From Oligoflexia bacterium (GTDB taxonomy: Bacteria > Bdellovibrionota > UBA1018 > CAIMNF01): a stretch of 64,000 nt of DNA. The position numbers were made by a program, and so were the translations under genes. This document shows, piece after piece, positions 55,621 to 56,015 of the stretch. Location: NCBI GenBank assembly GCA_903831745.1, contig CAIKYX010000261.1, positions 1 to 64,000 on the forward strand, given 5' to 3'. The notes under the pieces were generated by a model. That model saw only the letters and a list, made by a program, of their open reading frames with translations, was not told where the DNA came from and ran no database searches. Within the stretch, counting starts at the first letter, position 1. The number at the start of each line of letters is the position of its first letter.

Positions 55621-55686
55621 AATAAAAATTTAACGGTATTGATTTTGCATTCTTACTGTCGCCAAACACAAGCGAAGTAGAAGGAT

Positions 55687-55715
55687 TTACCTCCATTTTA
55701 GAAGAATGGAGGTGA
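55687..55715 (+). promoter_or_regulatory. SD-sequestering hairpin
   Basis: TTACCTCCATT (55687-55697) / AATGGAGGTGA (55705-55715), 11 pairs with one G-U, 7-nt loop; SD GGAGGTGA 55708-55715 wholly inside the 3' arm. Confidence 0.75.
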
Positions 55716-55719
55716 TTTT

Positions 55720-55884
55720 ATGAGAGCTACCAGACGTAGTTCTTATCGACTGGATCAGAAAAAACTTAATAGCCAATTGAAAAAAAGGTTATTAATTATG
55801 CAAAATATATGGCTTTTAATCGTTCTAAGCCGTGTTTTGTCCATACTGATCTTGATTCTGACTCACTATCACGAACGATTCTGA
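55720..55884 (+). CDS. 54-aa cationic single-TM small protein (type I toxin-like candidate)
   Basis: Not in the ORF track (shorter than its apparent 60-aa minimum). MRATRRSSYRLDQKKLNSQLKKRLLIMQNIWLLIVLSRVLSILILILTHYHERF; perfect SD GGAGGTGA with the GGAGG core ending 7 nt before ATG. Confidence 0.6.
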   Translation: MRATRRSSYRLDQKKLNSQLKKRLLIMQNIWLLIVLSRVLSILILILTHYHERF

Positions 55885-55980
55885 GGAGACCGGTACAGCG
55901 ATGTAAACCCGGAGTTTCTCAGGACGAGAATCGTTTGTGTTTGGTTTTCTTTTCGACCATGCAGTCTTGAAACAAATAAA

Positions 55981-56015
55981 AAAACCCCGGACACCAAACA
56001 GTACCCGGGGTTTTT
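55981..56015. terminator. Bidirectional intrinsic terminator between the small-ORF locus and atpE
   Basis: AAAACCCCGG (55981-55990) / CCGGGGTTTT (56005-56014) with A-tract and T-tract on either side. Confidence 0.85.

Follow-up and report, generated by a model that had tools for sequence, protein, structure and literature searches.

Introduction

Most of what is known about type I toxin systems comes from a small number of well-studied bacteria. In E. coli, tisB/istR-1 and similar toxins are activated by 5' processing of a locked leader, tisB itself being controlled by LexA rather than RpoN, and these systems are not known to have a 5'/3' fold-back helix. Sigma-54 promoters require an activator and ATP. 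In aapA3, the SD is occluded directly by a 3' anti-SD, and truncation at the 3' end activates the message (PMC6733600). Activation of hok likewise includes 3'-end processing, and chromosomal hok copies are often broken (PMC8309996).

Here we analysed a stretch of 64,000 nucleotides from an Oligoflexia bacterium (the window), in which an earlier note had proposed an mRNA with type I toxin-like architecture around a small ORF. We estimate at about 0.68 the probability that this locus is one copy of a new RpoN-driven, structure-locked mRNA family encoding short cationic membrane peptides, most likely type I toxins.

Results

The window locus and its fold

The locus lies between a 145-aa ORF without a Pfam match and, on the opposite strand, atpE (PF00137), from which it is separated by a terminator hairpin that is usable in both directions because of its A/T flanks (Table 1). 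As the earlier note had described, the ORF encodes a 54-aa cationic peptide with a single transmembrane (TM) segment, and the 15-bp long-range helix is exact, joining GCCAAACACAAGCGA to TCGTTTGTGTTTGGT with a terminal G-U pair. The hairpin that buries the SD is also real, but it comprises 13 pairs (two of them G-U) closed by a 3-nt loop, rather than the 11 bp given there. The note had not recognised the sigma-54 promoter, the helix H2 that competes with the SD hairpin, the hairpin at the start codon, or that the locus belongs to a family. The region 55640-55960 folds at -99.4 kcal/mol, compared with -69.9 +/- 5.2 kcal/mol for shuffled sequences (z = -5.7, 0/100). The architecture can hardly be accidental, since paralogues and other genomes show the same layout, with compensatory changes. 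The GGTACAGC motif of the 3'-UTR hairpin was found, by inspection, in nearly all family copies.

Table 1. Features of the locus, in window positions
Feature	Position	Strand	Basis or remark
Predicted sigma-54 promoter CGGTATTGATTTTGCAT	55634-55650	+	-24 GG 55635-55636, -12 GC 55647-55648
Predicted transcript 5' end (+1)	55660, +/- 3 nt	+	Inferred from sigma-54 promoter geometry, ~12 nt past -12 GC
5' arm of long-range 5'/3' helix	55661-55675	+	Covariation and swap test
Helix H2, GTAG 55677-55680 / TTAC 55687-55690	55677-55690	+	Covariation
SD-sequestering hairpin, anti-SD TTACCTCC / SD GGAGGTGA	55687-55715	+	Fold and covariation
ORF, 54-aa cationic single-TM peptide MRATRRSSYRLDQKKLNSQLKKRLLIMQNIWLLIVLSRVLSILILILTHYHERF	55720-55884	+	Stop TGA 55882-55884; homologues found
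Start-codon (coding) hairpin ATGAGAGCTAC / GTAGTTCTTAT	55720-55746	+	Swap test
3'-UTR hairpin bearing GGTACAGC motif (GGAGACCGG..CCCGGAGTTTCTC)	55883-55922	+	Sequence inspection and fold
3' arm of long-range 5'/3' helix	55931-55945	+	Covariation and swap test
Terminator hairpin separating ORF from atpE	55980-56015	.	Detected on - strand

A dispersed family with broken members

A DNA search of the same genome revealed four copies in all, the three beyond the window being 82%, 68% and, for a partial match, 72% identical. Protein profile searches extended the family to approximately 55 copies in 13 of the 55 genomes of the order, with 18 copies in one genome and seven and six in others, and it was absent from the other 42 genomes searched. 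The family recurs in predatory bacteria and their relatives; those carriers that have a name come from metagenome assemblies, and most bear the label Oligoflexia, Bacteriovoracaceae, Deltaproteobacteria or Bdellovibrio. The copies examined are dispersed beside unrelated housekeeping genes, which Pfam assigned to a family-2 glycosyltransferase, a Mur ligase and a rhomboid protein, and further neighbours are what we take to be MutS2-like and SMC-like proteins. A comparison confined to regions upstream of atpE, which the earlier note had suggested, would therefore miss the family.

Several copies stand in tandem, a few hundred bases to ~2 kb apart (L099, L091, L046/L053, G202:C10), an arrangement comparable to tandem type I toxin clusters. 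Broken copies were found in two genomes: in one, at least three had lost the TM-coding stretch partly or wholly, and in another, two carried premature stops. The deletions of the TM part in L096, L097 and L098 (genome G034) are of unequal length and share a left edge (..CCTGGATT), which suggests either that deletions favour this site or that toxicity has been lost more than once.

The searches also returned sequences outside the family. L088 (G081:C87:7638-7727) is a short ORF with MLIWLLVVIAKFLELLVALLN that follows a strong SD and has direct repeats on either side (CTAAAAACCGGAGGGC); it resembles other type I toxins and does not have the layout of the window's family. The weak DNA matches C131 and C93 in the window's own genome proved unrelated, and the weak protein matches L023 and L044 were discarded because they lacked the layout or sat within a long open frame. 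Searches of plasmids, phages and viral contigs yielded no copy. Pfam and NCBIfam gave no match reaching the curated cut-off. A search of Rfam with the window region returned nothing credible, most of the weak matches being the atpE terminator, and with eight members of the family nothing at the gathering score. Among the papers searched, none described the family and none reported a type I toxin system in Bdellovibrio-group bacteria. Relative to these papers, the family, its sigma-54 promoter and its mutually exclusive covarying helices are novel, as is the antisense terminator at the 5' end of the toxin gene in the sister family described below.

The peptide core is conserved

Most copies encode peptides of 41-54 aa with a cationic N-terminal half and one hydrophobic helix, and the conserved C-terminal half approximates [E]KLKxKxWxLxVLARLLxFLxLL. 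Substitution patterns in homologues indicate that the peptide core is under purifying selection, with a median dN/dS of 0.35 and dN below dS in 301 of 312 pairs; for the window copy and its nearest paralogue, dN was 0.14 and dS 0.93. The ORF, on whose conservation the earlier note had staked its proposal, is thus conserved. Distant copies share a CTA leucine codon at one ORF site (CTAGAAAAACTTAAG), seemingly beyond the amino-acid requirement, and this may reflect another signal carried by the opposite strand.

Covarying helices join the mRNA ends and cover the SD

In 42 of the 43 copies having both ends, the 13-18 nt right after the promoter pair with the tail 3' of the stop codon; the sole exception is L013, whose 3' end is lost. 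Choosing the arms by best duplex introduces a bias towards pairing, whereas the swap test gives every partner equal freedom: here, own arms formed duplexes of -24.8 kcal/mol compared to -16.9 kcal/mol when arms were swapped between genomes, with the same direction in 12 of 12 genomes. Across 36 distinct rows, 97.4% of cells were paired and both sides had changed in 11 of 13 pairs. There were 73 double-change cells versus 17.6 expected, a number reached by none of 500 shuffles, and sliding the helix out of register lowered pairing to 20-53%. The 5'/3' helix is maintained by compensatory change. The earlier note had named the lack of such changes in relatives as grounds for refuting its proposal, so that this check, like that of ORF conservation, speaks for the proposal.

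The local helices covary as well, with 90.4% of cells paired and 15 double-change cells in the SD hairpin, and 94.4% and 12 in H2 (0/500 shuffles in each case). The pairs that form H2 vary among copies (GTAG/CTAC, GTGG/CCAC, GTTG/CGAC, GCGG/CCGC), and because H2 shares bases with the foot of the SD hairpin, the two are mutually exclusive. Another hairpin starts at the AUG and prefers its own arms (-6.4 kcal/mol, against -3.2 kcal/mol after swapping between genomes; p = 5e-9). A local 5' hairpin, H1, was not significant as a general feature in the same test (p = 0.26).

In the full-length mRNA, the mean unpaired probability of the SD over 36 copies was 0.02, and the ribosome-binding site is consequently predicted to be sequestered. 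SD accessibility stayed at ~0.02 across the 36 copies in folds lacking either the 3' arm or the entire 3' UTR, a prediction of equilibrium rather than kinetic folding. Since the SD remained closed in these folds, 3' trimming was rejected as the sole trigger, and 5' cleavage or a trans-acting factor would therefore be necessary for opening. From these models we infer that the role of the 5'/3' helix would be end protection.

A predicted sigma-54 promoter precedes the leader

In 41 of 46 copies a GG-N10-GC motif precedes the 5' arm by 26-28 nt, compared with a background of 0.15 copies per offset elsewhere. Its consensus, GGYAT-N5-TTGCW, is that of sigma-54 (RpoN). As a predicted promoter, it places the transcript start in the window just downstream, at ~55660. 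RpoN is encoded in 54 of the 55 genomes of the order searched, that of the window included, and similarity between close copies starts, by eye, at the motif. In L013 and L047 of genome G006, the -24 element is overlapped by a long inverted repeat (AAGGCCA..TGGCCTT), which would terminate an antisense transcript just past the promoter.

A sister family carries an antisense terminator

Relatives elsewhere in the phylum were reached with a covariance model of the leader (R1) together with protein profiles. This revealed, in family f11, which has many closed genomes and is taken to be Bdellovibrionaceae, a sister family that occurs in 43 of 374 genomes. Its plan matches that of the window's family, with GG-N10-GC in 28 of 37 copies, an SD hairpin and a small ORF (consensus MRKxxYLRxRRxLxITKxxLxIILLILTI), and the 5' loop and 3' tail again prefer their own partners (-22.9 versus -16.5 kcal/mol swapped, p = 6e-9). 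Profile-profile comparison of the two families gave E = 5.6e-5 at a probability of only 66%, and common descent is therefore likely rather than proven; the shared layout, too, makes a shared ancestry likely.

All 37 sister copies have an intrinsic terminator on the opposite strand near the 5' end of the mRNA, at ~-65 to -93 from the ATG in 36 of them, the best one in L201 lying further upstream. Its mean score was 28.7, compared to 8.5 for shuffled sequences. The simplest explanation for this signal would be an antisense RNA overlapping the leader, and given its presence in every copy, an antisense antitoxin is therefore predicted in the sister family. In copies L153-L174 and L183-L201, the T-run of the terminator (GCATTTTT) contains the sigma-54 -12 GC, so that the promoter and antisense terminator signals overlap. 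Two attack-phase sRNAs of B. bacteriovorus HD100, APsRNA3 and APsRNA4, are 128 and 98 nt long and lie ~1 kb apart on the same strand (PMC3627812, Table 2); these are the sizes expected of antisense antitoxins.

The antisense terminator was not conserved in the window's order, where it scored 15.2 against 8.8 for shuffled sequences. A scan for antisense sigma-70 promoters in the same order did not rise above shuffles, though in many copies a TATAAT-like box faces codons 8-11. Neither for the window copy nor for its order was an antisense RNA, promoter or terminator convincingly identified.

Discussion

The type I toxin-like mRNA architecture proposed for this locus is strongly upheld: it is multi-copy, with a covarying fold-back, a sequestered SD, a selected cationic single-TM peptide and broken copies. 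As a new type I toxin it remains a candidate. The architecture speaks in favour; on the other side, one defining feature of hok and aapA, SD release by 3' trimming, was not reproduced in silico, where the SD was predicted to stay closed without the 3' arm, and no antisense RNA was identified for the window copy. On present evidence, the message would work like a hok- or aapA-type toxin mRNA, stored and fold-locked.

In the mechanism that we propose, an enhancer-binding protein and RpoN would turn on transcription under some signal, and the nascent leader would form H2 and then the SD hairpin, so that no toxin is translated during synthesis. Once the mRNA is finished, the 5'/3' helix would shield both ends and yield an inert stored form. 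An RNase step would then open it, with end trimming stripping the 5'/3' helix and subsequent 5' cleavage stripping the anti-SD arm to free the SD, and the peptide would enter the inner membrane, where the cell would be slowed or killed. Normally, an antisense RNA would neutralise the opened mRNA, a step predicted from sequence in the sister family only.

A riboregulated small membrane stress protein could account for several of the same features. Such a protein would be induced through RpoN by envelope or nutrient stress, with a folded mRNA that delays or tunes translation and no antitoxin. RpoN is a fitting regulator for stress genes and occurs throughout these genomes, the SD is locked locally without need of the 3' end, no antisense element was found in the window's own family, and the family is missing from many species, as expected of an accessory function. 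We nevertheless regard this explanation as unlikely, since up to 18 dispersed or tandem copies per genome and frequent TM disruption are common among type I toxins but would be out of the ordinary for a housekeeping stress protein, and the antisense terminator in 37 of 37 sister copies points to an antisense partner.

Dispersed copies, tandem pairs and inverted repeats near both ends would also be compatible with a MITE-like mobile element bounded by terminal inverted repeats (CCAAAC.../...GTTTGG) and carrying a decorative ORF. This is very improbable, however, because the letters of the repeats differ between genomes while pairing is kept, whereas the sequence of transposase-bound repeats stays constant. 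The conserved sigma-54 element is not part of the repeats but lies beyond them, the internal hairpins covary, the ORF is under purifying selection and no transposase was found among the flanks examined. That a chance ORF merely coincides with a chance foldback in an intergenic region is scarcely conceivable given homologues with compensatory changes in 13 genomes, and is refuted by the 5'/3' covariation.

A tentative proposal that covers both families, and that we consider quite possible, is that type I toxin-antitoxin modules controlled by RpoN form a superfamily spanning the phylum (Bdellovibrionota-like), in which the mRNA would be double-locked, a fold-back helix shielding its ends and two hairpins covering the SD and AUG. 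In the sister family, the terminator of the antitoxin would lie within the sigma-54 promoter and the toxin gene's 5' end, and the same few bases would then serve both for transcribing the toxin and for terminating the antisense RNA. These modules may have a role in a predatory or dormant life cycle. A sigma-54 promoter would give the candidate toxin a strict external trigger, and a large covarying family offers material for studying the mRNA folding that keeps a toxin silent. Since the group of the sister family has many closed genomes, probably including those of cultivated predators, that family is directly amenable to testing.

Among known systems, aapA/IsoA of Helicobacter pylori and other Epsilonproteobacteria resembles the window's family in its several chromosomal copies, its short cationic single-TM peptide, its covariation-supported SD-sequestering hairpins and the 5'/3' long-distance interaction of the full-length mRNA (PMC6733600). 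Unlike aapA/IsoA, the family has a predicted sigma-54 promoter, no antisense RNA was identified in the window's order, and Pfam and NCBIfam gave no recognisable relation of the peptide; unlike in aapA3, SD occlusion is local and predicted to persist after loss of the 3' arm. With hok/Sok (PMC8309996, PMC6733600), the family shares a membrane peptide of ~50 aa, a 5'/3' fold-back and numerous, often broken chromosomal copies. By protein match it is not a hok member, as none of five members tested matched HOK_GEF (Pfam) or the NCBIfam Hok models, and it further differs in its sigma-54 promoter and in an SD hairpin that would act directly rather than via mok, no mok-like overlapping frame having been identified. 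With tisB/istR-1, finally, it shares a locked leader that would need 5' processing, the route to activation that folding suggests here.
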